Made by a program: the position numbers and the translations under genes. From Bradyrhizobium sp. NFR13 (lineage in GTDB: Bacteria > Pseudomonadota > Alphaproteobacteria > Rhizobiales > Xanthobacteraceae), in contig NZ_FOTP01000007.1 of assembly GCF_900114605.1 (NCBI RefSeq), forward strand, positions 186,001 through 250,000: DNA of 64,000 nt, written 5' to 3'. Shown in pieces: positions 8,154-58,370 of the stretch; the first letter of the stretch is position 1; every line of letters begins with the position of its first letter. The notes under the pieces are model-generated. The model did not search any database, was not told the DNA's origin, and saw only the letters and a program-made list of their open reading frames with translations.

Positions 8154-8855
8154 CTACGGCGCCAGATACTGCAACAATCTCGGATCGTCGCGAATCTCGC
8201 CGGCCGAACCTGTCAGCGCAACCCGGCCACGGTCCAGAACATAGGCCCGGCTAGCGACATGCAGCGCCAGATCGAGATGTTGCTCGACGATGACCACGGC
8301 GATCTCCTTGGCCAGCACGATCAGGCGCTCGGTGATCTCCTCGATAACGCCGATCCAGACGCCTTCAGTGGGCTCATCCAGCAGCAGGATTTTCGGATCC
8401 GACAGCATCGCGCGCCCGATCGCCAGCATCTTGCGCTCGCCGCCGGACAATGTGCCGGCGAATTGATCGAGCCGCTGGCCGAGTTTCGGAAAGATCTCCA
8501 GCACGCGATTGACGGCCTGGCTGTCACGATTGGTCAGCGCGCCGACGGCGAGATTGTCGCGCACCGAGAGTTTCGCGAACACCGAGTGCTCCTGCGGCAC
8601 ATAGCCAATACCGCGGCGGATCCGTTGTTCGGTCGGAAGCTTTCCGACATCGCGTCCGTCGAACTGGATGGCGCCTGCAAGCACTGGCAACTCACCGATG
8701 ATGGCCTTCATCAGCGTGGTCTTGCCAGCGCCGTTGCGGCCGAGGATGGCGACGCCGCCGCGCCAGGGCACGCTCAGCGTGGCGCCGAACAGCACCTGGC
8801 TGCGGCCATAGCCGGTATCGAGGCTCTGGATGTCGAGGAATTTGTCATCAGGCAC
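8154..8855 (-). CDS. Branched-chain/urea-type ABC transporter ATP-binding protein (LivF/UrtE-like)
   Basis: The ATPase has Walker A GRNGAGKTT, signature LSGGERKM, Walker B ILLLDEPTEG and the switch His in VVIVEQHLD. The helix after Walker B reads GVWIGV where relatives usually have GLAP, a small oddity. The chosen start is GTG at 8855, overlapping the LivG-like gene by 8 bases; a further upstream start would add a 14-residue tail with no family match. It is the last gene of the amide-module operon running leftward from 15674. Confidence 0.9.
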   Translation of the reverse strand: MPDDKFLDIQSLDTGYGRSQVLFGATLSVPWRGGVAILGRNGAGKTTLMKAIIGELPVLAGAIQFDGRDVGKLPTEQRIRRGIGYVPQEHSVFAKLSVRDNLAVGALTNRDSQAVNRVLEIFPKLGQRLDQFAGTLSGGERKMLAIGRAMLSDPKILLLDEPTEGVWIGVIEEITERLIVLAKEIAVVIVEQHLDLALHVASRAYVLDRGRVALTGSAGEIRDDPRLLQYLAP

Positions 8856-9582
8856 GGCGGAGATAGACCTCCTGAACTTTCGGGCACGACTGCACATGCT
8901 GCACGGAGCCGGTCTGCAGGATCTGGCCCTGATCCAGCACCGTGAGGCGGTCGCAGATGTCGCGGATGAAATCGAGATCGTGCTCGACGATGACGAGCGA
9001 ACAATGCGCCTTGATCGGCTGCAGCAATTCGCCGGTGACGCGCCGCTCTTCCAGGCTCATGCCGCCGGTCGGCTCGTCGAGCAGCAGGAGCTTCGGCTCG
9101 GGCGCCAGCGCCATGGCGATCTCAAGCCATTGCTGTTGGCCGTGCGACAGCGCGGAGGCCGGCTCGTGGGCGCGATCGACGAGACGAAACTTTTCGAGCA
9201 TCGCCATGACTTTGTCATGCAGCACGCCGCGGGTGCGCGACAGCGCCAGATTGAGCAGCGATGTCTGCGCCTGCAATGCCAGCAGGATGTTGTCGTACAG
9301 CGTCAGGGCCGGCAGCACGCTGGTGATCTGGAACTTCAGGCTCATGCCGGCGCAGGCGCGCTCAGCCGGCGAGGCCTGCGTGATATCGTGGCCGCCGAAA
9401 GTGACGGTGCCTTGCGTCGGTGTCTCGGCGCCGGCGATACATTTCATCAGCGTGCTCTTGCCGGAGCCATTGGGACCTATCAGCCCGTGAAACTCATTGT
9501 CGGCGATGGTCAGGTCCGCGCCGTTCAGCGCAGTGAGCTTGCCGAATATCTTGACGAGACCCTTTGCTTCAAGGAGCGCCAT
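8848..9582 (-). CDS. Branched-chain/urea-type ABC transporter ATP-binding protein (LivG/UrtD-like)
   Basis: The 244-residue ATPase carries Walker A GPNGSGKST, the signature variant LSHGQQQWLEIAMAL that is typical of UrtD-like proteins, Walker B LLLLDEPTGGMS and a VIVEHDLDFI switch. It starts 2 bases after the LivM-like permease stop and pairs with the LivF-like ATPase at 8154. The LSHGQ signature points to urea/short-amide-type importers more than to leucine importers, which agrees with the nearby amidase. Confidence 0.93.
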   Translation of the reverse strand: MALLEAKGLVKIFGKLTALNGADLTIADNEFHGLIGPNGSGKSTLMKCIAGAETPTQGTVTFGGHDITQASPAERACAGMSLKFQITSVLPALTLYDNILLALQAQTSLLNLALSRTRGVLHDKVMAMLEKFRLVDRAHEPASALSHGQQQWLEIAMALAPEPKLLLLDEPTGGMSLEERRVTGELLQPIKAHCSLVIVEHDLDFIRDICDRLTVLDQGQILQTGSVQHVQSCPKVQEVYLRRA

Positions 9583-9584
9583 GA

Positions 9585-10619
9585 CTACCGCTTTCCCGGC
9601 GAACGGCCGAAATTGCCGACACGTTCGCGCTCCGTCAGCAACAGGCTGACGAGCCCAGCCGGACGGAACAGGATCACAAGCAGCAGCAATACGCCAAGAA
9701 TGATCGGCCAGATGTCCTGATAGCTGTTCGACAGCCAGAAGCTGACGGCCTCAATGACAACCGTGCCGATCACGGCGCCGATCAGCGTGCCGGAACCGCC
9801 GAACAACACATAGAGCACCACCTGGGTGGAAATCACGACGCCCAGCATGTTGGGCCAGACGAAGCCTTCATGAAACGCATAGAGACTGCCGGCGAGCCCG
9901 GCGATAGCCCCGCTCAGGGAGAAAATGATCGCCTTGAGGTGCTGCACCTTGTAGCCGAAGAAGGCGATGCGCTGCTCGTTCTCGCGCAGGCCGGCCAGAG
10001 CGAGGCCGAATTGCGAGCGCATCAGGAAACGACAGAGCAGATAGACCACGATCAGGAAACCGATCGCCATGTAGTAATAGGCAGGTCCCTCTGTGAGCTC
10101 ATAGCTGCCGATTGTCATCGGCGGGATCGAGGGAATGCCGTTCTGGCCGCCAAGATAATACCACCCCCGCGCCAGACGATCGCAGGCATAGGAGCCGGTC
10201 AGCGTACCCAGCGCCACGAAGATGACGCTGGCGGGATGGCGGCCGAGCAGCAGGAAGCCGCCGAGCAAGAGCGCGAAGGCAAAGCCGATCAACAGACCGG
10301 CGGGAAGCACGAGCAGGATCGAGGTGATGCCGAGATCGCGCGCCAGCAGCGCGACGCCATAGCCGGCCGAGCCGAAGAAAACGGCCTGACCGAAACTCAT
10401 GATGCCGGCATAGCCCCAGACCAGATCGAACGATAGCGCGAACAGGCAGAGGATCAGCACGCGGGTGGCATAGACGGTGAGATAGTCCTGCAGCACGAGC
10501 GGCAGCAGCAGGCCTATGACCAGTGCTGCGATTTCCAGCATCGGCAGCACCTGCCAATGACGCGCCGCGCGCAATGCGGTCGTCACAGTCACGGCAGAAA
10601 GTCGCGTCGTCTCGGTCAT
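9585..10619 (-). CDS. Branched-chain/urea-type ABC transporter permease (LivM/UrtC-like)
   Basis: This 344-residue protein has many hydrophobic segments and the LivM hallmarks FALSFDLVWGYAGIMSFGQA and VLFGGSGTLIGAVIGTVVIE. The ATG at 10619 is preferred over an upstream in-frame ATG at 10667, which would include part of the intercistronic hairpin at 10648. It partners the LivH-like permease at 11917; unusually, the binding-protein gene lies between the two permeases. Confidence 0.92.
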   Translation of the reverse strand: MTETTRLSAVTVTTALRAARHWQVLPMLEIAALVIGLLLPLVLQDYLTVYATRVLILCLFALSFDLVWGYAGIMSFGQAVFFGSAGYGVALLARDLGITSILLVLPAGLLIGFAFALLLGGFLLLGRHPASVIFVALGTLTGSYACDRLARGWYYLGGQNGIPSIPPMTIGSYELTEGPAYYYMAIGFLIVVYLLCRFLMRSQFGLALAGLRENEQRIAFFGYKVQHLKAIIFSLSGAIAGLAGSLYAFHEGFVWPNMLGVVISTQVVLYVLFGGSGTLIGAVIGTVVIEAVSFWLSNSYQDIWPIILGVLLLLVILFRPAGLVSLLLTERERVGNFGRSPGKR

Positions 10620-10647
10620 CAGTTCGCCGGCATGAGAGAAAGAGAGA

Positions 10648-10673
10648 ACGGGAGTGACACCCGCCACTCCCGT
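10648..10673 (-). terminator. Intercistronic hairpin after binding-protein gene
   Basis: ACGGGAGTG and CACTCCCGT make perfect 9-base arms with an 8-base loop, directly after the binding-protein gene (stop at 10692) and before the LivM-like permease. There is no long T-run, so partial termination or protection of the upstream message is more likely than full termination. Confidence 0.6.
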
Positions 10674-10691
10674 CGGGTTCGAACTATTGGC

Positions 10692-11912
10692 TCAGCATTC
10701 CTTGGGATCGACAAGACCGGCGCTGCGCGCGACGACCTCATATTTCCCGCCCTTGGCGACCGCCGTGTACATTTTCATCTTGCAGTGGCGCTGGCCGGGG
10801 ACCATCTCGGCCGGACCGCCCGGCCCTTCAGCGATCTTGGCGTGATCGAGCGCCTTGGCGATCGCGTCGCGATCGACGCTGCCGGCTTCCTTGACGGCCG
10901 CCTCCCAGAGCTTCAACCCGCGATAGGTGCCCGTCGCGGCGCTGCCCGCAGCGAACAGGAAATTGCCGGGGAACTGTTTCTCATAGGCGGCCTGGAGTTT
11001 CGCGCTGAACGGATCTTCTGGTGTCAGCGCCTTGAAGTAATCGAGGCAGCTTGCAAGCCCTTCAATCTCCGCCGGCTGATTGATGCTCAGCGTGTTCTCA
11101 TCGTAATAGACGCAGGCCAGCCGGCCGCCATTTTTCAGGAAGCCCGCTTCGGACAATTGCTTGAAGAATGGGCCGACACCAGGTGGAATGACGGTGTTGA
11201 AAACGACGTCCACCTTGTTGGAGATGACCCGGTTCACGGTCGAGGAAAAATCGATCTGGTCGAGCGGGTAGTATTCCTCGAACACGACCTCACCGCCATT
11301 GGCTTCGATCACCTTGCGGGCATAGACGTTCAGCGTATGCGGCCAGACGTAATTGGCACTGGGCAGCGCAAACTTCTTGCCACCATTCTTGATCAGCCAG
11401 GGGATGAATTCATCACATTGCTGCGCCGGCGTCGGCCCGGTGCAGAACAGATAGGGCGTGCATTCCTTGCCTTCATATAGCTGCGGATAGATGTAGAGCG
11501 TCTTGCCGCGTGAGACGATGACGTCCTTGATGGCGTTGCGCATCGACGAGGTGATGCCGCCGATGACCAGATCGACCTTCTCGCGCTGGATCAGCTTGCG
11601 CACATTACCGACCGCCACGGATTCATTGGACGCGGTATCCTCGATATACAGTTCCAGTGGCCGGCCAAGCAGACCGCCGGCATCGTTGATGTCCTTGATC
11701 ACCATCCTGGCCACATTGGCGTCAGCATTGCCGGCATAGCCCATCGGCCCGGTCAGATCGGTACCGACACCGACCTTGATCGGTCCGGCAGCCGCGTTGG
11801 CCCAGTCCGGCCGGATCACCCAACTGCCGACACCAGTGGCGATGGCCGTCCCGAACAGGGCCGCATTGCCGAGAAAGCGGCGGCGGCTGAGAGTGTTGGC
11901 GTCTTGAGACAT
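10692..11912 (-). CDS. Amide/urea-type ABC transporter substrate-binding protein, Tat-exported
   Basis: The 406-residue protein has a twin-arginine signal (SRRRFLGNAALFG, residues 9-21) and a Peripla_BP fold close to the UrtA/AmiC/FmdD group (VGVGTDLTGPMGYAGNADAN, then GGLLGRPLELYIEDTASNES). The start at ATG 11912 is chosen because AAAAGGGG precedes it; an upstream ATG at 11936 lies within the permease gene. It lies between the two permeases of its transporter and downstream of an amidase, so short amides, urea or formamide are likely ligands. Family and export are clear; ligand is inferred. Confidence 0.9.
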   Translation of the reverse strand: MSQDANTLSRRRFLGNAALFGTAIATGVGSWVIRPDWANAAAGPIKVGVGTDLTGPMGYAGNADANVARMVIKDINDAGGLLGRPLELYIEDTASNESVAVGNVRKLIQREKVDLVIGGITSSMRNAIKDVIVSRGKTLYIYPQLYEGKECTPYLFCTGPTPAQQCDEFIPWLIKNGGKKFALPSANYVWPHTLNVYARKVIEANGGEVVFEEYYPLDQIDFSSTVNRVISNKVDVVFNTVIPPGVGPFFKQLSEAGFLKNGGRLACVYYDENTLSINQPAEIEGLASCLDYFKALTPEDPFSAKLQAAYEKQFPGNFLFAAGSAATGTYRGLKLWEAAVKEAGSVDRDAIAKALDHAKIAEGPGGPAEMVPGQRHCKMKMYTAVAKGGKYEVVARSAGLVDPKEC

Positions 11913-11916
11913 TGGA

Positions 11917-12774
11917 CTAAACCCCTTTTCCTGCAACGAGGCCCTGCGGCCGGAATTTGATGAAGATGATGGCGAGCACGAATACGGCGACGTCGGCGAT
12001 AACGGGCGAAATCACCCACGGCAGCGCCGCACTCAGCGTGCCGATCAGGCCGGCGCCAGCCACCGGTCCGGCAAAGGAGCCGATGCCGCCGACCATGACG
12101 GCCACGAAGCCCTGAATCAGAAAGCGAATGCCGAGATCGGCAAACAGCGTGAACACCGGCACGATCAGCGCGCCGGCCAGACCTGCGAGCGCGGCGCCGA
12201 ACGCGAAGGTTGCGCCATAGATTGCGTTGGTCGAAATGCCGGAGGCTCGCGCCAGCGCCGGGTTCTCCAGCGAAGCGCGGATGCGCAGGCCGAACGCGGT
12301 GCGCGCCAGAAGCAGATAGCTCCCTGCCATCACCAGTGCGGTGATCACGATGATCACCAGACGCCAGGTTGAGAAATGCATGCCGCCGATGGCCACCGAG
12401 CCGCCGACCGGCTCCGGCACCGAGAGATACAGTCCGCCGATCAGGCCGCGCACGATCTCGCGAATGATCAGTCCGAGCGCATAGGTACCGAGCATGGCGA
12501 CGATCGGCGCGGCATAGAAGCGCCGGACAATCAGCCGCTCCAGCACGAAGCCTAAAGCACCAACCACGAAGGGTGCAGCGATCATGCCCAGCCACACCGG
12601 CGCGCCGGCGGAATGGACGATATAGGTGACATAGGCCCCGAGCAGAACGAACTCGCCCTGCGCGAAATTGAAGATACCCATCATGCTGGCGATGATCCCC
12701 AGCCCCAGCACGACCAGCACGACGATCGCCCCGAAACTGGCGATCTCGAAGACCGCCATGATCAGATTATCCAT
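11917..12774 (-). CDS. Branched-chain/urea-type ABC transporter permease (LivH/UrtB-like)
   Basis: The 285-residue permease shows the LivH pattern GIIASMMGIFNFAQGEFVLL near residues 25-45, the cytoplasmic loop RASLENPALARASGI and the C-terminal FAVMVGGIGSFAGPVAGAG. It begins 35 bases after the amidase stop on the same strand and precedes the binding-protein gene by 4 bases. It is one half of the channel, with the LivM-like protein at 9585. Confidence 0.93.
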   Translation of the reverse strand: MDNLIMAVFEIASFGAIVVLVVLGLGIIASMMGIFNFAQGEFVLLGAYVTYIVHSAGAPVWLGMIAAPFVVGALGFVLERLIVRRFYAAPIVAMLGTYALGLIIREIVRGLIGGLYLSVPEPVGGSVAIGGMHFSTWRLVIIVITALVMAGSYLLLARTAFGLRIRASLENPALARASGISTNAIYGATFAFGAALAGLAGALIVPVFTLFADLGIRFLIQGFVAVMVGGIGSFAGPVAGAGLIGTLSAALPWVISPVIADVAVFVLAIIFIKFRPQGLVAGKGV

Positions 12775-12809
12775 GCGTGATCACCGATCCTCGCTTCTGC
12801 ATGGATGCC

Positions 12810-14324
12810 TCACATCGTCTTCCAATCGGCGGACTGCTCGAAGGCATGAGCCGCGCGATAGATGGTCATCTCGTCGAAATGCTTGCCGACCAGCATCAGT
12901 CCGACCGGCAGACCATCGACCATGCCGCAGGGGATCGACATCGCCGGATGATGCGAGATATCGAACGGCGAGGTGTTGGAGATCATTTCGAAGGCGCGGC
13001 CGACGACTTCTTCACGCGGCGCGCCGGGCGCCGGCAGCGGTGTCGCCTTCATCGGCGTGGTCGGCATCAGCAACAGATCATAGCTCGCCAGCGCCTTGTC
13101 ATAGGCAGCCGTGACGCGGCGCGAGATATTTAGCGCTTTGCCGTAGAAGCGCGGTCCGAAATTATTGTTGATATAGGTGCCGAACAGCAGCAGCAGCTTG
13201 GTGGTTTCGGACAGCGAGTCCGCCTGCCCGCGCCAGCCACGATGGGCGTCCATCAGCGACGTCGAATAGAGATCCGACCGGCTGAGGCCATAGCCGTCGC
13301 CCACCATCATGGTCTGGGTCATGCCTTCGGTGCCGATCGGCGTCCAGACCGCCGCCGCGGTGAGATGCATCGGGATCGAGATCGTCTCCACTGTCGCGCC
13401 CAGATCGGCGAAGCGCTTGGCGGCTTCGCGAACGCTGCGGTTGACCGCGTCTTCGGCGCCGAGCTGCTCGAAACCTTCCTTGACGATGGCGATCTTCATG
13501 CCCTTGACGCCGGTGCCGAGCGCCTTGGTGTATTCCGGCACTTCCGGCGACTTGATCCGCGGATCATAACCGTCATCGCCGGCAAGCACTTCCAGCAGCA
13601 GCGCATTGTCAGCGACACTGGATGTCATCGGGCCAGTGTGATCGACGAATATCTCGATCGGCATGATGCCCGTATAAGGCACCAGACCCCAGGTCGGCTT
13701 CATGCCATAGGTGCCCGAGAAGGACGACGGCATGCGGATCGAACCGCCCTGGTCACCGCCAATCGCCATGTCGACTTCGCCGAGCGCGACAACGACCGCA
13801 CTGCCGGACGAAGACCCGCCGGCGGAATAGCCCATCTTGTGCGGGTTATGCACGTTGCCCGTCGAATTGGTGTGGCTGCCGCCGGACATGCAGAAGGATT
13901 CGCAATGCACCTTGCCCATGATCTCGGCGCCGGCGTCCAGCATGCGCGTGACGATGGTGGCGTCGAAATCCGGCACATAGCCTTCCAGCGTGGAGGAGCC
14001 GTTCATCATCGGCACGCCGGCCAGCATGATGTTGTCCTTCAGCGCAACGGTCTTGCCCTTGAGCTTGCCGCTGGGCGCACCTTTCACAACCGATTTGCGA
14101 TACCAGGCGTTGCGCGTGTTCTCCTCCGGCACGGGCCGATAACCTGGCGTGCGCGGATATTTCACTTCGGGCACTTCGTCGGGCATCGCCGCCACGACGT
14201 TGTAGGCATCGACGGATCCCTGCATCAGCGCGCGGAACGAGGTGACGTCCTCCGTGGATAGTGCGAGGCCGCACTGATCGGCGACGGCAAGGAGTTGATC
14301 GGGAGTGGGAAGTGAAACGGCCAC
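12810..14324 (-). CDS. Amidase, Rhodococcus nitrile-pathway type (amidase signature family)
   Basis: This amidase hydrolyses carboxamides to acid and ammonia through a Ser-cisSer-Lys triad. With the GTG start at 14324, supported by AGGAGAA 8 bases upstream, the triad falls at K96 (in ALKDN), S171 (in GGSSSGS) and S195 (in GGDQGGSIRMP); these numbers equal those I recall for the Rhodococcus N-771 amidase, supporting the start. An upstream ATG at 14390 lacks such a site. Length 504 residues, no signal peptide, so cytoplasmic. It lies between an AmiC-like sensor and an amide-type importer. Nitrile hydratase genes are absent, so imported amides are the likely substrates. Confidence 0.93.
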   Translation of the reverse strand: MAVSLPTPDQLLAVADQCGLALSTEDVTSFRALMQGSVDAYNVVAAMPDEVPEVKYPRTPGYRPVPEENTRNAWYRKSVVKGAPSGKLKGKTVALKDNIMLAGVPMMNGSSTLEGYVPDFDATIVTRMLDAGAEIMGKVHCESFCMSGGSHTNSTGNVHNPHKMGYSAGGSSSGSAVVVALGEVDMAIGGDQGGSIRMPSSFSGTYGMKPTWGLVPYTGIMPIEIFVDHTGPMTSSVADNALLLEVLAGDDGYDPRIKSPEVPEYTKALGTGVKGMKIAIVKEGFEQLGAEDAVNRSVREAAKRFADLGATVETISIPMHLTAAAVWTPIGTEGMTQTMMVGDGYGLSRSDLYSTSLMDAHRGWRGQADSLSETTKLLLLFGTYINNNFGPRFYGKALNISRRVTAAYDKALASYDLLLMPTTPMKATPLPAPGAPREEVVGRAFEMISNTSPFDISHHPAMSIPCGMVDGLPVGLMLVGKHFDEMTIYRAAHAFEQSADWKTM

Positions 14325-14492
14325 GATGATTTCTCCTGATATCCACGATGCAACCGGCGCGGCATTTCTTCGGGATGCCCACGCCGTCAAGGCGACGACG
14401 GTGTCGCCTTTCGCGCATCATTAGAAAGAGAAATATTTTCCTTTTCAAGTATTATTTTCGGGATCGTCCTGATCGGATCGTCTGCGACTGAC

Positions 14493-15674
14493 CTAGAATG
14501 TCCGGATGAGCCTGAAATCCAGACCGTCTGCTTCGGCAAGATAGATCGGCATCTTCGCCCGCCCGCCGCGCATGCTGACCTCACCGCGGGCGCCATGATA
14601 GGCCACACTGGACGCCGCGTTCAACATCGGCCGGACGTCGAATGAGCCCGCCTTGGTCGCCACGGATTCGAGAAACCGAAGCCCCTCGTAGTTCGACTGC
14701 GCGACCGATCCCGGCACAGGCGCACAGCGTCCAAACGATGCTTCATATTGCGCGCGGAATGCATCATTCGCCACCGATGCACGGTCGACGAAATAGCCCG
14801 ATGCACAATAGAGCCCCTCGGAACTATCCGCGCCCATGCCGAGCAGCAGCGTTTCATCCATGGCCCCCGCCAGTCGGAGAACCTTCGACGAGAGACCATG
14901 TTCGGCGAAGGCGCGGTTGAACACGATGCTGTCGGTACCGATCAGCGAGATGACCACGACATCCGGCTTGGCGGCCCGGATGCGGGCGATCTGGGCATCG
15001 TGATTCTGCTCGCCAAGCGCAACGAATTCCTCACCGACCACGCGCCCTCCGGCGCCGGCGATATATGTCTTGGTGGCCTTGTGGGCCAGCCACGGCCAGA
15101 CGTAATCGCTGCCGATCAGATACCAGCGCTTCGCCTTCTTTTCATTCGCCAGCCATTCGATGGCCGGGCGCGACTGATCGCGCGGCGTCTCACCGATCGC
15201 CATCACGCCGGGCGTGCGTTCTCCGCCCTCATAGACAGGCGTGTAGATATAGGGCACGCGCCCGGCGATCACCTTGCGCAACGCGACGCGGACCGCGCTG
15301 ATATGAGAGCCCATGATGACATCGGCATCACCAGCCTCGATCATGTCGGCTGCCGTGCGGACAACGCCATCGATATCGCCGCCGGCGTCATGAAACACCG
15401 GCTCGATCTCGCGCCCGAGAATGCCGCCGCGCCGATTAATCTCCGATGCCGCGAGCATCATGCTATTGGTGCCCGCCAGGCCCCAGATCCCGGCCGGGCC
15501 GGACAGCCCGATAAAATTGACGACGCGCAGCTTTTCGCGATTGCGACGCCGCGGAAACAAATCGGGACGTGCAATAGCGGCACGACCTCCCCCGCTGTCC
15601 TGAAAGCCCTTCAGCAACCATGGCGCTGACATCGGCAGCGCGCCGGTCGTTGCAATCTGCAGTGACGAGAGCAT
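14493..15674 (-). CDS. AmiC-like ligand-binding protein without signal peptide (probable amide sensor)
   Basis: The 393-residue protein has the same two-lobed fold as ABC binding proteins of the AmiC/UrtA group (VVNFIGLSGPAGIWGLAGTN near residue 51, INRRGGILGREIEPVFHDAG near 79). It lacks a Sec, Tat or lipoprotein signal, which suggests it stays in the cytoplasm as AmiC does. AAAGGAG precedes the ATG. It is divergent from a MarR regulator and upstream of the amidase. In Rhodococcus J1 an AmiC homologue (NhhC) and a MarR-type protein (NhhD) control nitrile/amide enzymes together; this pair looks analogous. A role as a second transport protein cannot be excluded. Confidence 0.82.
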   Translation of the reverse strand: MLSSLQIATTGALPMSAPWLLKGFQDSGGGRAAIARPDLFPRRRNREKLRVVNFIGLSGPAGIWGLAGTNSMMLAASEINRRGGILGREIEPVFHDAGGDIDGVVRTAADMIEAGDADVIMGSHISAVRVALRKVIAGRVPYIYTPVYEGGERTPGVMAIGETPRDQSRPAIEWLANEKKAKRWYLIGSDYVWPWLAHKATKTYIAGAGGRVVGEEFVALGEQNHDAQIARIRAAKPDVVVISLIGTDSIVFNRAFAEHGLSSKVLRLAGAMDETLLLGMGADSSEGLYCASGYFVDRASVANDAFRAQYEASFGRCAPVPGSVAQSNYEGLRFLESVATKAGSFDVRPMLNAASSVAYHGARGEVSMRGGRAKMPIYLAEADGLDFRLIRTF

Positions 15675-15784: not shown

Positions 15785-16285
15785 GTGCATATGGATCAGG
15801 CAAAGTCGCTTAATATTCATCACCCCTTCCAGCAAAGTTTCCCAACCGTGGCCAGAACGCCGAGCACGCCCATCACCGAACACCTCGCTTATCTGCTGGC
15901 GCAGGCGAACCGGGAAATTAATCGCCAGCTCGATGCGCGCTTCAAGAAGGAAGGCGTGCCGGTCGAACAGTGGCGCATTCTGAAAGTGCTGTCCGACGGC
16001 AAGGGCCACTCCATGGGCGACCTCGCCGATGCGGTTCTGCTGAATCATCCGACCCTGACCAAGATGGTCGATCGCATGGTGTCTGATGCGCTGGTCTACC
16101 GGGTGCAGGACCCCGACGACCGCCGCAAGGTGGTGATGTTCATATCCGACCGCGGCAAGACACTGACCCAGCGGCTGAACTCGCTGGCGCTGAGCCAGGA
16201 AGCCCATATCGCCGAGAACTACGGCAACAAGGCCACGGCCGATCTGAAGCGCCTGCTGGAAAGCCTGATCGAAAAGGCGAACTAG
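15785..16285 (+). CDS. MarR-family transcriptional regulator
   Basis: The 166-residue protein has a MarR winged helix: PVEQWRILKVLSDGKGHSMG, then recognition region NHPTLTKMVDRMVSDALVYR, then the wing DPDDRRKVVMFISDRG. The start is uncertain among GTG 15785, ATG 15791 and GTG 15848; none has a strong ribosome binding site, and the first two lie 8-14 bases from the palindrome. It probably controls the divergent amidase-transporter operon, perhaps through or alongside the AmiC-like sensor. It converges with the RidA gene at 16311. Confidence 0.88.
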   Translation: MHMDQAKSLNIHHPFQQSFPTVARTPSTPITEHLAYLLAQANREINRQLDARFKKEGVPVEQWRILKVLSDGKGHSMGDLADAVLLNHPTLTKMVDRMVSDALVYRVQDPDDRRKVVMFISDRGKTLTQRLNSLALSQEAHIAENYGNKATADLKRLLESLIEKAN

Positions 16286-16310: not shown

Positions 16311-16697
16311 TTATGTGGGCCGTCGACAAACCAGGTCGATTTCGATCAGAGCGTCATAAGCGAGGCCCGTGACGCCAACACAGGTCCGCGCCGGCAGGCG
16401 ATCCGGTGGAAAATAGCTGCGATAGGTCTCGTTCATCGCCACGTAGTCGCGCTTGAACTCGGTGAGATAGATCCGCGTCATGGTGATGTGCTCGAAGCCG
16501 AGCTCGAGCCCCGCGAGCACCACGCGCAGATTCTCCATCACCGCTTTGGTCTGAGCCACGATGCCATCGGGCAGCACGCCCGGCATTGCCGGTGTATCCG
16601 GCATCTGCCCGGTGACGAACACGAAGCCATCGGTCTCCACAGCATGGCTGAACGGCGCGACCGGCTTCGGGCCGCCGGAGATCATGTGAAATTGCAA
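16311..16697 (-). CDS. RidA/YjgF-family protein (reactive imine/enamine deaminase)
   Basis: At 128 residues this matches the Rid family, with FSHAVETDGFVFVTGQMPD near the N terminus, VMENLRVVLAGLELGFEHIT mid-protein and the conserved Arg in LPARTCVGVTGLA. RidA proteins hydrolyse enamines and imines to ketones and ammonia; some paralogs in catabolic operons hydrolyse other carbamoyl or amide intermediates. The start is TTG 16697 with AGGAG 8 bases upstream; ATG 16685 is an alternative. It is the last gene of the operon that begins at 23041, right after the AraC-acetamidase fusion. Confidence 0.9.
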   Translation of the reverse strand: MQFHMISGGPKPVAPFSHAVETDGFVFVTGQMPDTPAMPGVLPDGIVAQTKAVMENLRVVLAGLELGFEHITMTRIYLTEFKRDYVAMNETYRSYFPPDRLPARTCVGVTGLAYDALIEIDLVCRRPT

Positions 16698-16715: not shown

Positions 16716-19076
16716 TTATGATTTTGACGTGTGGTCGAACACACGCTTGCTCAAAATGGCATGAACGCCCCAGTTGCCATCGACCACCTGCGTCACGCCA
16801 AAGTCGACCGCGACCGACATCAACGCGATCGCCTCATCCTCGGTGAGACCTTTGATGTTCATCAGGAAGCGCCGCATCTTGCGAAAGGCGTCCTTCATCG
16901 CGAGATCGAGCGACGAGGTCGCATAGACCTCGCTCTGCCCCTTGGCGCCGAATTCGGCGAGATAGTTCGGATGGCTGAAGCCCATCAGCACCCAGTCACT
17001 CTCGGTCTCGATCAGCGGATAAGTGAGATCGGCGAACGCCTGGCCGGCGAGATTACCCTTCTTGTGCAGGACCACCTGGAACGTTCCAGTCATCGAACAT
17101 TCGATCGCCGTGCCGCCGAGTTCACCATCGCCCTGCGCAGCATGGGGATCGCCGACCGACAGCAATGCGCCGGGCACCGACACCGGAAGATAGACCGTCG
17201 ATCCCTTGCCGAGCCGCCAATTGTCGAGATTACCGCCAAAATAGGCTGGCGGCACTGAATCGACGAGATCGGCTTCGCGCGGCGCCACGGCAATGACACC
17301 GAAATGCGGGCGCAGCGGAATGCGAATGCCGTCGAGCACGTCATGCCGACGCCGCACAGAGGCCGGCGTAATCGGAATGCCAGGATAGTCGTAGGTGTTG
17401 TGCACGGTGCCGAATGGATCGGTCTGCGGCTCCCAGCGATATGAATAGAGCGCGCGCGCATATGGCACGTCGTCGTGATCGAGAATTTCGTAGATCGTCA
17501 CCGCCTCACGCGCATTCTGCTCGGCGAGAAATTCCTTGTAGTGATAGCCCCACCATGCCGCGACGCTGCTGCCGAAAACCTGGCCGTCGAAATCCGGATT
17601 TCGACTGGCGCGCGGCACGATGTCGAGAATGCGGATTTCGAGCACGTCCCCGGGCTGCGCGTCCCTGATCGCCACGGGCCCGGTGCAGATGTGGACGCCA
17701 AAGCCCTCACCGGCACCGCGGCCATAGATCGAGGCGTCCATCGGACCGGCGCCGCGGCGATCGACATTCTTCTGATCGCGCGTCCAGCGGAACACGCTCT
17801 CAGCGCCGATATCGCCCTTGATCATCCGCTCGGGATCGTCGGATGCGTGCTGCGTCAGTGTTTCGATGGTGATCGTGTCACCGGAATTGATCTCGATCTG
17901 CGGCGGCAACGAGCGGCTGAAATAGCCCCAGTGCACGCGGGACGCATCGGCGGCGAGATGATGATGCCGCTGGTTCTTCGAAGCATCCGCGATGTCGTGC
18001 GTGATTGTCGCGGTCGGCTCCCGCTGCACAATCTTCCCCGCGATCAACGGCGCGTGCTGACCGCGCAACTGCGCCAGCGCTTCCTGCGGCCAGCCGCGTT
18101 GTCCCACCGCCGTCGCCGACGCCGTCAAGCGCTCGGCTTCGTTCTGGCGGAATTCGCGCGGCGACAGGCCGAAGCGATGACGGAACGTGCGGCTGAAATG
18201 CGCGGAGTCATTGAAGCCGGCACGAAAGGCAATCTCGGAAATCGAGTGATGCGCCTCGGACGGATTCGACAGATCGGCCCAGGTGCGCTGCAGTCGGCGC
18301 TCGCGGAGATAATGTGTAAAACTGCTGCCGGTGCCTTCGAATAGTTTCTGCAGATAGCGTTCGGAGATGCCCTCGGCCTGCGCCACCTTAGCCGGCGTCA
18401 GATCCGCATCGTCGAGGCGTCGCTCGATGGTCTGGCACAGCCGATGCAAAGTCGCAGCCTTGGTCGCCGTGCCGCTGTTGAGATCGGCCATCGGCTCGGC
18501 CAGTTGACGTGTAAAGGTCGGCAACAGATCGGCAAGACTTTGTGCGACCGCCGACCATTCGGCATCGGACAATGTTTCAAGGTTGCGGGCCGCCTGTTCC
18601 ATCATACGCGCGAACACGTCGCCGAAGCCGCCGGGGCCTACGATCTGGACATCGGCGATGGCGGGTGCACTGGCGCGGCGGCTGTGCAGCGGATCGGACG
18701 TCACCGAGAGCACCACCGCGCGCATGTCGCGCTGGAATGCGACGCTCCAGTCCCCTTTGCGCGGCAGCAGCAGCAGATGCCCAGCGGCCACGATCTGATG
18801 TCCGGCGACTGTCTTCAGGCCGACACCATCCTCAAGCGGCAGCAACACCAGCGGATGATCGCTGGCTAGATCCGACAGCGGCGAGATCGCCTGTGCGCCG
18901 GCAGACAATTTGGCCAGCGCAATGCCTTCGAAGGTGCGACGAACTGCGGTGGCGTGGCCGTGATGAGTGGTCGTCGCAGCCGTCGGCTGCAGACCAATCG
19001 AACTCAGGACGTCGCGCCATGCTTCGGGGCGGTCGTCTTCGGAGTAGGATTCACTGGTGAACGGACGGAGGCTCAT
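16716..19076 (-). CDS. AraC-type regulator fused to acetamidase/formamidase
   Basis: One uninterrupted 786-residue frame joins two unrelated families. Residues about 1-200 resemble the AraC_binding_2-type sensor region (LSDLASDHPLVLLPLEDGVG; LLLLPRKGDWSVAFQRDM). Residues 225-310 are a full AraC double helix-turn-helix, ending FRAGFNDSAHFSRTFRHRFG then LSPREFRQ. After a linker of about 60 residues, 370-786 form a complete acetamidase/formamidase domain (VHWGYFSRSLPPQIEINSGD; SVGDPHAAQGDGELGGTAIE) that aligns over its whole length with the separate enzyme at 19205. The ATG at 19076 has GAAGG upstream; ATG 19160 is possible. Fusion suggests an enzyme that senses its own amide substrate while bound to DNA, but this is inference. 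No frameshift or stop separates the halves. Confidence 0.9.
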   Translation of the reverse strand: MSLRPFTSESYSEDDRPEAWRDVLSSIGLQPTAATTTHHGHATAVRRTFEGIALAKLSAGAQAISPLSDLASDHPLVLLPLEDGVGLKTVAGHQIVAAGHLLLLPRKGDWSVAFQRDMRAVVLSVTSDPLHSRRASAPAIADVQIVGPGGFGDVFARMMEQAARNLETLSDAEWSAVAQSLADLLPTFTRQLAEPMADLNSGTATKAATLHRLCQTIERRLDDADLTPAKVAQAEGISERYLQKLFEGTGSSFTHYLRERRLQRTWADLSNPSEAHHSISEIAFRAGFNDSAHFSRTFRHRFGLSPREFRQNEAERLTASATAVGQRGWPQEALAQLRGQHAPLIAGKIVQREPTATITHDIADASKNQRHHHLAADASRVHWGYFSRSLPPQIEINSGDTITIETLTQHASDDPERMIKGDIGAESVFRWTRDQKNVDRRGAGPMDASIYGRGAGEGFGVHICTGPVAIRDAQPGDVLEIRILDIVPRASRNPDFDGQVFGSSVAAWWGYHYKEFLAEQNAREAVTIYEILDHDDVPYARALYSYRWEPQTDPFGTVHNTYDYPGIPITPASVRRRHDVLDGIRIPLRPHFGVIAVAPREADLVDSVPPAYFGGNLDNWRLGKGSTVYLPVSVPGALLSVGDPHAAQGDGELGGTAIECSMTGTFQVVLHKKGNLAGQAFADLTYPLIETESDWVLMGFSHPNYLAEFGAKGQSEVYATSSLDLAMKDAFRKMRRFLMNIKGLTEDEAIALMSVAVDFGVTQVVDGNWGVHAILSKRVFDHTSKS

Positions 19077-19204
19077 GCATCGACCTTCATAGCCGAAGCG
19101 AAGCAACCTCCGTGCCATCCCGAAGGACGCAGCGCCCTGCCCTGCAACTTCCCCGATCACCGCGCCATCATCCTCACAATCGAATTTATTGCGATTTCAT
19201 CCAC

Positions 19205-20446
19205 TTAGTCGCAGCGGAAGACGTTCTTGCGGATCGTGCCGTGGACACCCCAATTGGCATCGACCACCTGCGTCACCCCGAAATCCGCACCGACCGACAT
19301 CAGCGAGATCGCCTCGTCTTCACTCATCTTGTGCACCGTCATCAGGAAACGCCTGAGCTTGCGGAATGCATCGCGCATGGCCCGATCGAGGCTGGAATGG
19401 TTGGCGACGTCGAGCTGGGCATTGGCGCCGAGTTCGGCGAGATAGTTCGGAAAGGTAAAGCCATAGACCGACCAGGCGTCGGGCGTTTCCAGCATCGGAT
19501 GCGTTAGGCCTTCGAGGGGCGTACCGCCGAGGTCGCGATGCTTGTGCAGGATGAACTCGAAATCGCCGGTCAGCGAAGTCTCGATGGCAGTGCCGCCGAG
19601 CTCACTGTCGCCCTGCGCGGCATGGGGATCGCCGACCGAGAAGAACGCGCCGGGCACCGCCACGGGATAGAACATCTTGGCGCCCTTGCCGACGCGCCAG
19701 TCATCGATATTGCCGCCGGTGTAGCTCGGCGGGATCGACGACACGAAATCCTCCTCGGATGGCGCAAGGCCCATGGTGCCGAAATGCAATCGGGCCGGAA
19801 CCCTGACATTGGGCAGGATGCTTTCGCGTTTCCTGATGGTCGCGTGATCGACGCGTACGCCGGGATAATCGATGGTCGAATGCAGGATGCCATCAGGATC
19901 GATCTGCGGCGTCCAGACATAATTATAGACCGCCTTGGCAAACGGCTCGCCCGACGTATCGAGCTCGAAGATCGTCACGACCTCGCGCGGCTTCGGTTCC
20001 TCGATCAGATCGTGATAGTGGAATCCCCAATTGGCGGCGACGTTGGAGCCGAAGCACTTGCCGGCATAACAGGCCTTGCAGGCCGGCCGCGGGCGCACGT
20101 CGAGAATACGCACTTCCAGCACATCGCCTGGCTCTGCGCCTTCGATCGCCACCGGCCCGGTGAGCAGATGTACGCCGACGCCTTCGCCTGAGCCGCGGAT
20201 GAACGGGCCTTCGGTGGGGCCCGAGCCGCGGCGGACGACGGCCTTGTGCTCACGGGTCCATTTGAACACGCTCTCGGCGCCGGGATCGCCTTCGATCATG
20301 CGCTCGTAATCGTCATTGGCATGATGCGTCAGCGTTTCGATGGTGGCGCGGTCGCCCGACTTCAGCGTCAGCGCGGGCGTCACGACCTTGCTGAAATAGC
20401 CCCAGTGAACGGTCTTCGGCGACACTGGAAGAAGATGATGCTTCAT
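19205..20446 (-). CDS. Acetamidase/formamidase family protein
   Basis: This 413-residue cytoplasmic enzyme is a full-length FmdA/AmdA-type amidase that hydrolyses formamide or acetamide to the acid and ammonia. Visible motifs are VHWGYFSKVVTPALTLKSGD, SGEGVGVHLLTGPVAIEGAE, SVGDPHAAQGDSELGGTAIE and a C-terminal SEDEAISLMSVGADFGVTQV. GAGGG precedes the ATG by about 8 bases. It follows the permease-ATPase fusion by 45 bases and is followed by its own paralog fused to an AraC regulator, with a 128-base spacer between them that may hold a promoter. A Cys-rich patch (CKACYAGKC) near residue 128 is absent from the fused paralog. Confidence 0.93.
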   Translation of the reverse strand: MKHHLLPVSPKTVHWGYFSKVVTPALTLKSGDRATIETLTHHANDDYERMIEGDPGAESVFKWTREHKAVVRRGSGPTEGPFIRGSGEGVGVHLLTGPVAIEGAEPGDVLEVRILDVRPRPACKACYAGKCFGSNVAANWGFHYHDLIEEPKPREVVTIFELDTSGEPFAKAVYNYVWTPQIDPDGILHSTIDYPGVRVDHATIRKRESILPNVRVPARLHFGTMGLAPSEEDFVSSIPPSYTGGNIDDWRVGKGAKMFYPVAVPGAFFSVGDPHAAQGDSELGGTAIETSLTGDFEFILHKHRDLGGTPLEGLTHPMLETPDAWSVYGFTFPNYLAELGANAQLDVANHSSLDRAMRDAFRKLRRFLMTVHKMSEDEAISLMSVGADFGVTQVVDANWGVHGTIRKNVFRCD

Positions 20447-20491: not shown

Positions 20492-22102
20492 TCACGAGAC
20501 TTCCGCCTCCATCGCATTGAGAAAACGCTGCGCGACGGGATTGCGCGGATTAGTCAGGACTTCACCGGCTGGGCCTTCCTCGATAATCGCGCCTCCGGCG
20601 AGCAGCACCACACGGTCGGCCACTTCGCTGGCAAAGCGCAGCTGATGCGTCGAGATGATCATGGTCAGACCGTCCTCGACGGCGAGCCTGCGGATCACTT
20701 CGAGCACTTCGTTGACCAGTTCGGGATCGAGCGCCGATGTCGGCTCGTCCAGCAACAGCACGCTCGGATTGGGCGCGATGGCCCGGGCGATGGCGACGCG
20801 CTGTTGCTGGCCGCCGGACAGATGCCGCGGCAGCGCATTGGCGCGGTGGCTGAGGCCGACACGGGCCAGGAGTTCATCGGCCCGACGATCGGCATCGGCA
20901 CGCGCTACGCCGTGTACCCAGCGCAGCGGGCCGGCGATGTTTTCCTTGGCCGTGAGGTGGCCGAACAGGTTGAACTGTTGGAATACCATGCCGACACCAA
21001 CCTCGGCACGGGCATTGGCGAGCAAACGCGGCGATAGCGGCCTGCCGTGCGTGTTGAAGCCAAGCTGGCGTCCACCGACCTTGATGGCGCCGCCGTTCCA
21101 CAGTTCGAGATTGTTGATACAGCGGAGCAGCGTGCTCTTGCCGGAGCCACTTGGTCCGAGCAGCGCGATCACTTCACCGATCCGCACCGTGATGTCGACG
21201 CCGTCGAGCACCACATTCCTGTCATAGCTCTTGCGGAGATCGGAGACCTCGACGGCGACATTGTTGCGCGCCAGCATCTCCGCGCGTTTGGCGCGATCGG
21301 CGCGTTCCGGCCGCATCCGCGGCGGCGGCAGTTCGGCGACACCGCCGTCGGGCAGGATTTCCGGCGACATGTCGGCCTGCGGCGCCAGCGGATCGTCGCT
21401 GCCAGGCGCGCGATACCACGGCATGAAGCGCATGAACTGGTTCTGCCTGGTCGTGCGATCGAGGTCGAACTTCCATTCCAGAAGCAGTTGGATGCCGGCG
21501 ATCGCCGCTGTGAGCAGAAGATAGATCAGGCCCGACGCGAAGAAGATCGAAAAGAAATCGAAGGTCGAGGACACCAGTTGCGTCGAACGCAGCGTCAACT
21601 CCTGCACGGCGATGACGGAGGCCAGCGACGAATTCTTCAGCGCGCTGACCGCTTCGTTGCCGAAAGCCGGGATCATCGAACGGATGGCCTGCGGCGCGAT
21701 GATCCGGCGCATCAGGACGCCCGGGCTCATGCCGAGCGCCTGGCCGGCCACCACCTGACCGCGGTCGACGCCGAGCACGCCGGAGCGCAGCATCTCGGCG
21801 ATGAAGGGCGCCTCGTTGCAGGCCAGTGCCAGACCGGCAGCGAGAATGGCGGGAAGCTTGATGCCGATCTGCGGCAGCGCATTGTAGGCGAACACCATCT
21901 GCAGGATCAGCGGCGTGCCGCGGAAGATCACAGCATAGACCCGGGCGAAGGATGCCAGCGGCTTGAACCGGCTGAGTTGCATCCATGCCAGGATCACACC
22001 GAGGATCAGCCCGCCGGCGAGACCGAGGGCGGTGACCTGCAAGGTCGCCTGAATACCCTCGATCATATACGGCATGCTGAGATAGTGGAGGAACAGCTCC
22101 AT
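20492..22102 (-). CDS. Fused amino-acid ABC permease and ATP-binding protein
   Basis: A single 536-residue chain contains a HisM/GlnP permease (residues 1-225, coupling loop GQALGMSPGVLMRRIIAPQA), a charged Pro-rich linker (about 230-285), and a GlnQ ATPase (Walker [13 protein letters not shown]-loop MVFQQFNLF, signature LSGGQQQR, Walker [13 protein letters not shown]). The importer therefore probably works as a homodimer of this protein, which makes a second permease gene unnecessary; none is present. The binding-protein gene lies 18 bases upstream and an acetamidase gene downstream. Confidence 0.93.
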   Translation of the reverse strand: MELFLHYLSMPYMIEGIQATLQVTALGLAGGLILGVILAWMQLSRFKPLASFARVYAVIFRGTPLILQMVFAYNALPQIGIKLPAILAAGLALACNEAPFIAEMLRSGVLGVDRGQVVAGQALGMSPGVLMRRIIAPQAIRSMIPAFGNEAVSALKNSSLASVIAVQELTLRSTQLVSSTFDFFSIFFASGLIYLLLTAAIAGIQLLLEWKFDLDRTTRQNQFMRFMPWYRAPGSDDPLAPQADMSPEILPDGGVAELPPPRMRPERADRAKRAEMLARNNVAVEVSDLRKSYDRNVVLDGVDITVRIGEVIALLGPSGSGKSTLLRCINNLELWNGGAIKVGGRQLGFNTHGRPLSPRLLANARAEVGVGMVFQQFNLFGHLTAKENIAGPLRWVHGVARADADRRADELLARVGLSHRANALPRHLSGGQQQRVAIARAIAPNPSVLLLDEPTSALDPELVNEVLEVIRRLAVEDGLTMIISTHQLRFASEVADRVVLLAGGAIIEEGPAGEVLTNPRNPVAQRFLNAMEAEVS

Positions 22103-22120: not shown

Positions 22121-23041
22121 TTACTTGACCATCAACAGGCCGGGCTCCATCAGATTGTTCGGATCGAGATTCCACTTCTTCAGCAGAGCTGCCTGATCCC
22201 CCGACTTGTAGATCTCCATCAGTGCCGCATGCACCGCTTCGCGGAACTTCGGCTTGTCCTTCGGCACCGCAATGCCGACTTGATAGGGAATCGTCACCGC
22301 GATCGCCTTTTCGAGCTTGTCCGGATAGGCCTTCACGGCATTGTCGACAGTATTGACGTCGTTGATGTAAGTGTCGGCGCGACCAGCGAGGATCGCCTGG
22401 ATGCAGTTGGCATTGTTGTCATAGAGCTGGATGGTCGGCTCCGCCTTGCCTTCCTTCTTGCATTCCGGCCCCAGCGCCTGGATCAGCGGCACTTCGACAT
22501 AGCCGGTGTTTTCCGCCGCAGCCGTGCCACACAGCGAGGTGTTGATGCCGGTAATCTTCTTCGGATTGCCCTTGGCGACGAGCACGCCGTCGAACACCTT
22601 GGAATAGGTGATGAAGTCGGCGGCCTTAGCGCGCTCCTCGGTGGCATAGATGTCGGAGATCACGATGTCGGCCTGGCCCGATGCCAGCGTCGTCAGCAAG
22701 GCCGCGAACGTCACAGCCTTGTAGGTCAGCTTGAAGCCAAGGCATTCCCCGATCTGCTCACCGAGATCGATATCGAAGCCGATATATTTGCTGGGATCCT
22801 TGGGATCGATCGATTCATAGCCCGGCGTATGCGGATTGATGGCGTTGACGAGTGTCTTGCCTTTCCAGTCCGGATACTTCGCCTGCAACTCGGCGCAAGC
22901 CGCCGGCACGGCCGCCTGCGCCGACATCGGAACAAAGGTGCCGACCGCCAATAACGCGCCCACTGCCGCCGCGCGCAATCCAATCATCGCGCCAGGTTCG
23001 GGCCAAAGCCTACGGTTGCCGGCAAAATGCAACTTGACCAT
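22121..23041 (-). CDS. Amino-acid-type ABC transporter substrate-binding protein
   Basis: A 306-residue family 3 binding protein with the typical first-lobe pattern YIGFDIDLGEQIGECLGFKL near residue 87 and SGQADIVISDIYATEERAKA. AAGGAG lies 7 bases upstream of ATG 23041, giving a long signal peptide whose hydrophobic core is residues 22-44 (cleavage near SAQAA); a second ATG at 22987 would give a shorter signal but has no binding site. It is the first gene of the operon with the permease-ATPase fusion and two amidases, so an amide-bearing ligand is suspected. Confidence 0.92.
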   Translation of the reverse strand: MVKLHFAGNRRLWPEPGAMIGLRAAAVGALLAVGTFVPMSAQAAVPAACAELQAKYPDWKGKTLVNAINPHTPGYESIDPKDPSKYIGFDIDLGEQIGECLGFKLTYKAVTFAALLTTLASGQADIVISDIYATEERAKAADFITYSKVFDGVLVAKGNPKKITGINTSLCGTAAAENTGYVEVPLIQALGPECKKEGKAEPTIQLYDNNANCIQAILAGRADTYINDVNTVDNAVKAYPDKLEKAIAVTIPYQVGIAVPKDKPKFREAVHAALMEIYKSGDQAALLKKWNLDPNNLMEPGLLMVK

Positions 23042-23262
23042 TCGATCGCTCCTTCGACGTTGTCATGGCCTGAACCATGTTCCTAACCTCGAAGAAGCCT
23101 ACGGGCGCATGCCCGCAGAAAGCTTGTCCCGGGACGTACAATAATTTGGATCGTCCGCTCCCATGATTTGGGCAGAGCTGCCACATTAATGGGCGACGGA
23201 GTTCTTACCAGATAGATCTTATTTGCCGCATGTCGGCTGCGCGCCAGAAGCGGTCATAGGAA

Positions 23263-23288
23263 GATCTCTTGTTAAATTACAAGAGATC
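23263..23288 (-). terminator. Hairpin after ureohydrolase gene
   Basis: GATCTCTTGT and ACAAGAGATC form perfect 10-base arms around TAAATT, starting 2 bases beyond the ureohydrolase stop (23290, - strand). No T-run follows, so it may be a Rho-independent-like stop, a 3'-end stabiliser or an operator for the rightmost promoter of the operon at 23041. Confidence 0.5.
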
Positions 23289-23289
23289 C

Positions 23290-58198: not shown

Positions 58199-58370
58199 TC
58201 AATTTGCAATCTCCGTGCCAGCCTGAGAAAAGGCAGGAAATGGCTTCCGCAACACCGACTCACGGTTCCGCAATGCCTTCTTCGCGATTTCCGCGACGTC
58301 GCTTGCATCGATTTTATGCGCCGGCCTGCTCGAATTACTGCCACGGCACCGGATTCCAGATGAGGTCCGC

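Follow-up and report, generated by a model that had tools for sequence, protein, structure and literature searches.

A single gene of Bradyrhizobium sp. NFR13 encodes an AraC-type transcription factor joined to a complete amidase of the FmdA/AmdA family. Our preferred reading, to which we give a probability of about 0.55, is that the fused protein is an RpoN-gated, dedicated local regulator of amide uptake and hydrolysis, and that its amidase domain recognises, and probably hydrolyses, the inducer. It would act as the local transcription factor of an amide-scavenging unit comprising a solute-binding protein, an ABC importer, and a free FmdA, with a RidA-family gene adjoining. Through its own sigma54 promoter, the regulator would be made mainly when RpoN-dependent activation permits, probably during nitrogen limitation. 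To activate the importer operon, the double helix-turn-helix (HTH) would bind tandem half-sites that recur every 22 bp in front of it. The amidase domain would bind the imported amide as inducer and very probably hydrolyse it. Activation would last only while import outruns hydrolysis, which would make the response self-limiting.

The window, i.e., the whole stretch of 64,000 nucleotides that was analysed, carries the fused gene at 16716-19076 on the minus strand, where 786 codons (786 aa) run uninterrupted from ATG to stop. The initial annotation had described a single frame that joins an AraC domain, a double HTH, and a whole amidase; the open frame and Pfam agree with this, and full-length conservation in many genomes adds to it. 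The mechanical ORF extends back to a GTG at 19160. The ATG is the preferred start because it is kept at this position in 76 of 76 near-relative loci (the L028-L104 rows and L117), and because a sigma54 promoter falls between the GTG and the ATG. All three Pfam domain types score over their cut-offs: AraC_binding_2 at residues 37-187 (7e-8), HTH_18 at residues 232-311 (8e-22), and FmdA_AmdA (3e-30). Two HTH models are matched, HTH_18 with 77.9 bits (cut-off 33.6) and HTH_AraC with 40.8 bits (cut-off 26.6), and PF03069 is matched with 105.9 bits (cut-off 27). On the minus strand, these correspond to a fast-evolving AraC_binding-like N-terminal domain (18480-19076; aa 1-199, with PF14525 at 37-187), a double HTH (18141-18464; aa 205-312, by HTH_18 and HTH_AraC), and an FmdA/AmdA amidase domain (16731-17966; aa 371-782). 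The last assignment is shared by PF03069, Foldseek, and a match to the closest solved relative, 3b9t (E 7e-177, residues 367-781), which is also the top Foldseek hit of the amidase half with 58-59% identity across the whole domain. The fused protein is not filed as a formamidase proper, since its score of 61.0 bits against NCBIfam formamidase FmdA (NF045496) lies below the cut-off of 500. Its best NCBIfam score, 115.5 bits against FeaR (NF007243), does not reach the cut-off of 199. Existing annotation reads either “acetamidase/formamidase family protein” or “AraC family transcriptional regulator”, so that one half of the protein is easily overlooked. An AlphaFold2 model of the whole protein, built from 30 rows, has a mean pLDDT of 66.9 and a pTM of 0.47, with residues 321-367 below 50. 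Because of this low confidence, no claim is made on domain packing or on contacts of the R-G-x-P element discussed below; Foldseek support is restricted to the separate domains.

Conservation along the protein was followed in an alignment of 98 rows, the window and 97 open frames from loci L028-L117 and L139-L161, each with coverage of over 150 positions in the N-terminal part and over 300 in the amidase. Coverage below these limits excluded L091, L100, and L107, and L001-L027 and L118-L138 were dropped as redundant, whereas the frame-changed copy L156 was kept. The rows are all different, yet many are close relatives. The family motifs GGNLD and GDPHAAQGDGE span residues 614-652 (17121-17237, minus strand), and the corresponding FmdA/AmdA patterns GGN-x-D and GD-x-H...Q-x-D-x-E are what we take to be the active site. 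G614, G615, N616, D618, G642, D643, H645, Q648, D650, and E652 occur in 98 of 98 rows, and three groups of free amidases used for comparison (17, 17, and 5 rows) show no variation at the motif residues either. Within the HTH, 18 positions of residues 231-312 are conserved at 98% or more. When the window is compared with eight distant loci (L105, L110, L139, L149, L150, L151, L153, and L155), identity is 19-29% in the N-terminal domain, 45-56% in the HTH, 13-27% in the linker, and 58-75% in the amidase. Thus, the amidase is the most protected part of the protein and, apart from the linker, the N-terminal domain is the least conserved, which makes the “AraC sensor” of the initial annotation unlikely as the conserved ligand reader. 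Being the most conserved part and having complete motifs, the amidase half is the best candidate for reading the inducer. The earlier proposal that the enzyme half may sense or remove the inducer fits this pattern of a conserved amidase and a fast-changing N-terminal domain; the inducer would then be an amide, and the fused amidase domain is presumably catalytic.

A protein that only senses, with an amidase half that binds the amide without hydrolysis like the aminotransferase-like domains of MocR/GabR regulators, is an unlikely but serious alternative. Transcription factors whose sensory domains resemble enzymes are well established (PMC5320631), and one change specific to the fused proteins is consistent with this alternative: residue 630 is Leu in 33 of 33 fused rows, and Tyr stands there in 94% of 17 Tat-type free rows. 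However, Leu630 is no sign of decay, as free amidases that are more distant (2f4l, 2ii1, and 5ubu) have Leu there as well. Moreover, some loss of motif residues would be expected of a sensor-only domain over such divergence, and they are kept in every row. We also consider it improbable that the two halves were joined for convenient co-expression, with the amidase outside signal reading and the N-terminal AraC_binding-like domain as ligand reader. All domains do look intact, and a nearby free FmdA could make a second amidase redundant. Nevertheless, an N-terminal sensor of a shared ligand should be conserved more strongly than the amidase, which is the opposite of the pattern observed, and among the loci seen, the halves occur apart only in apparently broken copies (L107 and L156).

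The neighbourhood is in keeping with a local regulator of amide uptake and hydrolysis. Three genes lie directly 5' of the fused gene on the minus strand, encoding a free FmdA amidase (19205-20446; 413 aa; PF03069, 3b9t with E 4e-181), an amino-acid-type ABC permease/ATPase fusion (20492-22102; Pfam BPD_transp_1 and ABC_tran), and a family 3 solute-binding protein (22121-23041; Pfam SBP_bac_3). The next gene directly 3' encodes a RidA-family protein (16311-16697, minus strand; Pfam Ribonuc_L-PSP); this neighbour is found in most Nitrobacteraceae-type loci and in three rhizobial operon-type loci, and not in Ancylobacter. Judging by the type of importer, the transported amide is probably small and polar or similar to an amino acid. 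The free paralog reported earlier is real by Pfam, and it is 56% identical to the fused amidase half. Its placement in the same operon as the fused gene stands only in part: no terminator-like site was found between the genes, but a perfect sigma54 promoter occupies the 128-bp spacer. Two further observations concern the region beside the fused gene. A second amide-related cluster at 8154-15674 holds branched-chain-type ABC transporter genes, an amidase-signature amidase (12810-14390), and UrtA-like binding proteins, and a MarR-family regulator (15785-16285, plus strand) lies between the RidA gene and a UrtA-like gene.

For gene context, 100 loci were counted as fused under looser limits (L091, L100, and the in-frame-stop copy L107 included), and 83 of them had at least 3 kb of 5' and at least 2 kb of 3' flank. 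A free FmdA gene lies within 1.5 kb in 77 of these 83 loci and within 2.8 kb in 80. In the 77 loci, it is on the same strand upstream in 69, divergent in 6, and once each on the same strand downstream and convergent; L151, L154, and L160 have it divergent at 1.7-2.8 kb. L106, L110, and L157, also among the 83, carry the fusion with no free FmdA nearby. In a tree of 75 hand-picked amidase domains, the partner FmdA proteins come from three subgroups and the fused domains form one clade. The regulator therefore accompanies amidases of the FmdA fold generally rather than one ortholog, and for the same reason, it is plausible that the free paralog would supply the bulk activity, as the initial annotation proposed. 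In Caballeronia, genes for the importer, FmdA, and nitrile hydratase are divergent to the fused gene. At this locus (L151, 240-3022), nitrile hydratase and CbtA/CbtB genes adjoin the importer/FmdA unit and suggest a nitrile-to-amide-to-acid route.

The consensus of sigma54 promoters is TGGCACG-N4-TTGCW, with GG and GC at -24/-12. The promoter of the fused gene, TGGCACGGAGGTTGCT (19102-19117, minus strand), matches 12 of the 12 specified bases, and its first base lies 41 bp 5' of the ATG. In 81 of 97 loci, a match of at least 10/12 lies 41-60 bp ahead of the start, and weaker matches occur elsewhere in two more; in this count, an aligned column rather than a true start codon was used for L108, L109, L110, L111, L139, and L156. 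A match of at least 8/12 is absent from the other 14 of the 97 loci (L105, L106, L108, L110, L111, L139, L140, L149, L150, L154, L155, L156, L158, and L161). As background, 172,697 bp of ten loci, read on both strands, contained 17 sites of at least 10/12. Two of these were 12/12 sites, and one of the two is presumably the L045 target site itself, L045 being among the ten loci. The window has a second perfect sigma54-like site at 58205-58220 on the minus strand. Neither NifA-like (TGT-N10-ACA) nor NtrC-like patterns were found in 19101-19600. Nitrogen limitation is the probable cue for the promoter of the fused gene.

Upstream of the solute-binding-protein gene, an operator-like array (23123-23185, minus strand) is indicated by a conservation footprint, the score of a position weight matrix (PWM), and a 22/44-bp periodicity. 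Its half-sites follow at 22-bp steps (23123-23140, 23143-23163, and 23166-23185). The footprint at the importer promoter is strong, and a loose core is present in 69 of 81 importer promoters. The PWM was trained on distinct importer-promoter sites of Nitrobacteraceae and near relatives. It scores 30.0 at 23123, or 29.2 when the 22-mer of the window is left out of training, and the next-best score within the window is 13.3. The two spacers named in the initial annotation as possible targets fare differently: the one 5' of the solute-binding-protein gene (given there as 23042-23262, here as 23042-23289) contains this conserved array and is a candidate, whereas the one at 19077-19204 has a best score of -2.0 and holds the sigma54 promoter instead. 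At the importer promoter of the window, no sigma54 match of at least 9/12 was found, and the scan gave no sigma70-type match at the importer genes. GACAAG was dropped as a -35 element because its gap to TAGGCT is 21 bp and the scan had no sigma70 match.

The matrix was also applied to 24 loci outside the training set, and in 11 of them its best match falls at the expected promoter regions, which make up 2.8% of the bases; some partner-gene starts in this test were set by hand. By comparison, 200 column-permuted matrices placed their best match there in 0.78 of the 24 loci on average and in 5 at most. The matrix used across lineages and for periodicity still held the 22-mer of the window via four close relatives. 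The 11 loci represent about seven lineages: Ancylobacter (3), Neorhizobium/Rhizobium (2), G039, G027, G651, Sinorhizobium (one of three related loci), and Paraburkholderia (2, one of them weak). Among the 11, L153 scores only 10.6. The motif is not the best match at the expected promoters in the other 13 loci (L105, L106, L108, L109, L140, L141, L149, L151, L154, L155, L157, L158, and L160), and it is the second-best match in L151 (Caballeronia), L155, and L160. In 65 promoters, half-site scores upstream of the proximal site are highest at distances of 22 and 44 bp. Seven of 13 sites picked by hand from other lineages have their best neighbour, of 78 offsets tried, at exactly 22 bp. At the Paraburkholderia aromaticivorans locus L152, the motif stands in front of a short FmdA that belongs to a different subgroup, which indicates that the motif follows the regulator rather than one partner. 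The consensus TGTRCGN6GACAAG has two exact matches in the genome and its reversed control has one, about what chance gives; genome uniqueness of the motif was therefore not used as evidence.

The fused protein presumably binds this operator-like motif and would activate rather than repress. That it could instead be mainly an enzyme with a vestigial DNA-binding half is very improbable. The amidase being the most conserved part would suit such a protein, but the HTH signature positions and the R-G-x-P residues are near-invariant, and some of the loci share the operator-like motif at their expected promoters.

In a run of the check proposed with the initial annotation, the same domain order was found full-length in many alphaproteobacteria and several betaproteobacteria. 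The fusion is also not confined to one assembly: four other genomes of the same genus carry it at 97-98% identity, as does Tardiphaga, and so do many other genera. An assembly or sequencing artefact, for which no supporting point was found, is excluded by this conservation, since complete plasmids and tens of other genomes carry the same open frame. A relatives search of 101 genomes, including the own genome, gave 20 with a match at 1e-60 and 16 with a full fusion, and an order search of 397 genomes gave 45 at 1e-100 and 20 full fusions. These full-fusion counts were made by eye from matches that start at residue 97 or earlier and end beyond residue 770. At 1e-80 and with amidase-only matches included, 6 of 385 genomes matched in the class search and 16 of 398 in the phylum search. 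A collection of genome contigs yielded 127 stretches that match a pattern, 106 of them encoding a relative; 80 were kept, mostly from Bradyrhizobium, Rhodopseudomonas, Tardiphaga, and Ancylobacter. Among plasmids, 18 records have a match and 16 have one place that covers at least 80% of the query. These 16 come from Rhizobium, Neorhizobium, Sinorhizobium, Novosphingobium, Caballeronia, Paraburkholderia, Variovorax, and an unclassified Hyphomicrobiales bacterium. Together, the searches covered Pseudomonadota, and further phyla to the extent that the contig and plasmid collections include them. Some single records deserve mention. G1105, G1094, and G1048 each have two full-length AraC-amidase fusions that differ from each other. 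Fused genes that are split or shortened occur in L107 (a metagenome bin), L156 (Rhizobium johnstonii), and L091 (a Xanthobacteraceae bin). L051, titled Frankia sp. RB7, has a Bradyrhizobium-like fused gene and neighbourhood, and is probably a mislabelled or mixed assembly. In the titles and opening parts of abstracts that were searched, mostly outside subscription journals, an AraC-FmdA fusion is described nowhere.

The 34 fused amidase domains, that of the window included, form their one clade in the midpoint-rooted 75-domain tree with a support of 97/99, and the nearest free row is G448. This clade is placed among Tat-exported amidases. In the nearest free group, which has 17 rows, a twin-arginine leader of one general type (e.g., ERRSFLK) is present in 15 and absent from L114 and L146. 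The amidase half thus most likely descends from an exported enzyme whose leader was replaced by the transcription factor, a direction that we infer, given the midpoint root and the moderate support of the nesting branches (84/72, 89/99, and 94/94), which lie under the tree's star limit. As for a pre-fusion state, none of 13 loci with a free FmdA-family gene and no fusion (L112-L116, L142-L148, and L159) yielded an AraC gene similar to the fused N-terminal domain. Two of them have an AraC gene by HTH alone, namely L116, from the own genome, and L146, where it lies about 5 kb away. In L116 (5936-8556), a distant FmdA (30% identical) and a short AraC-type ORF are convergent and about 0.5 kb apart; this pair is a possible but weak two-gene counterpart of the fusion.

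Between the HTH and the amidase, the otherwise variable linker contains an AT-hook-like R-G-x-P element (RGWP; 18087-18098, minus strand; aa 327-330). All 98 rows have R327, G328, and P330; at the third residue, 84 of them have W, 8 have R, and 3 have L. In 15 free AraC relatives (16 hits), no R-G-x-P follows the HTH. The core of an AT-hook is RGRP, and in the bacterial AT-hooks of WhiB7 and CarD, this core reportedly contacts the minor groove. The fused linker shares the R-G-x-P core with them but differs in that its third residue varies and that Pfam AT_hook is unmatched, in the fused protein at E<=0.001 and in three fused relatives at E<=10. In the operator-like motif, each of the seven bases before TGTRCG is A or T in 88-100% of 58 distinct promoters, within promoter regions of 59% mean G+C. 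This A/T tract as a contact of the R-G-x-P element is suggestive only.

A more far-reaching form of the preferred reading, which we hold tentatively and at less than even odds, is that of a catalytic transcription factor that destroys its own inducer. It would combine an amidase from an exported pool, an AT-hook-like linker, and an AraC DNA-binding domain under RpoN gating. Amide uptake would be on only while substrate occupies the active site, and R-G-x-P would contact the A/T tract between the operator half-sites. The transition from enzyme to sensor is usually hard to test, as the catalytic residues have already decayed. The fused enzyme half has its full motif residues, free paralogs at the same locus, and one origin, so that catalysis and sensing should be separable by single substitutions. 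If true, this reading would explain the gating of amide scavenging in soil and root-nodule alpha- and betaproteobacteria, and it offers a candidate amide-responsive regulator with a predicted operator.

The fused protein can be compared with several known systems. It shares the N-terminal domain and the double HTH with AraC/XylS regulators that have AraC_binding_2 (FeaR-like). In contrast to the 15 free AraC relatives, which end soon after the HTH, it continues with the R-G-x-P linker and a whole amidase. With the 3b9t-type FmdA/AmdA, a Tat-signal protein of Methylobacillus flagellatus, it shares the identity across the whole amidase domain and aligned family motifs; the free relatives of this type mostly have a Tat leader where the fused protein has the AraC regulator. 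Ada, which carries an AraC-type HTH with a methyltransferase, and PutA unite DNA binding and catalysis in one chain, as is predicted of the fused protein, but their catalysis is unrelated and neither has an amidase. MocR/GabR regulators, as outlined in PMC5320631, combine a GntR HTH with an aminotransferase-like domain and use repeated DNA sites. An enzyme-derived C-terminal domain on a DNA-binding regulator is common to both, as are repeated DNA sites, which are putative for the fused protein, whereas the HTH and enzyme families are unrelated. Transcription factors with enzyme domains are already known, and the AraC-amidase combination is an added variant of them.
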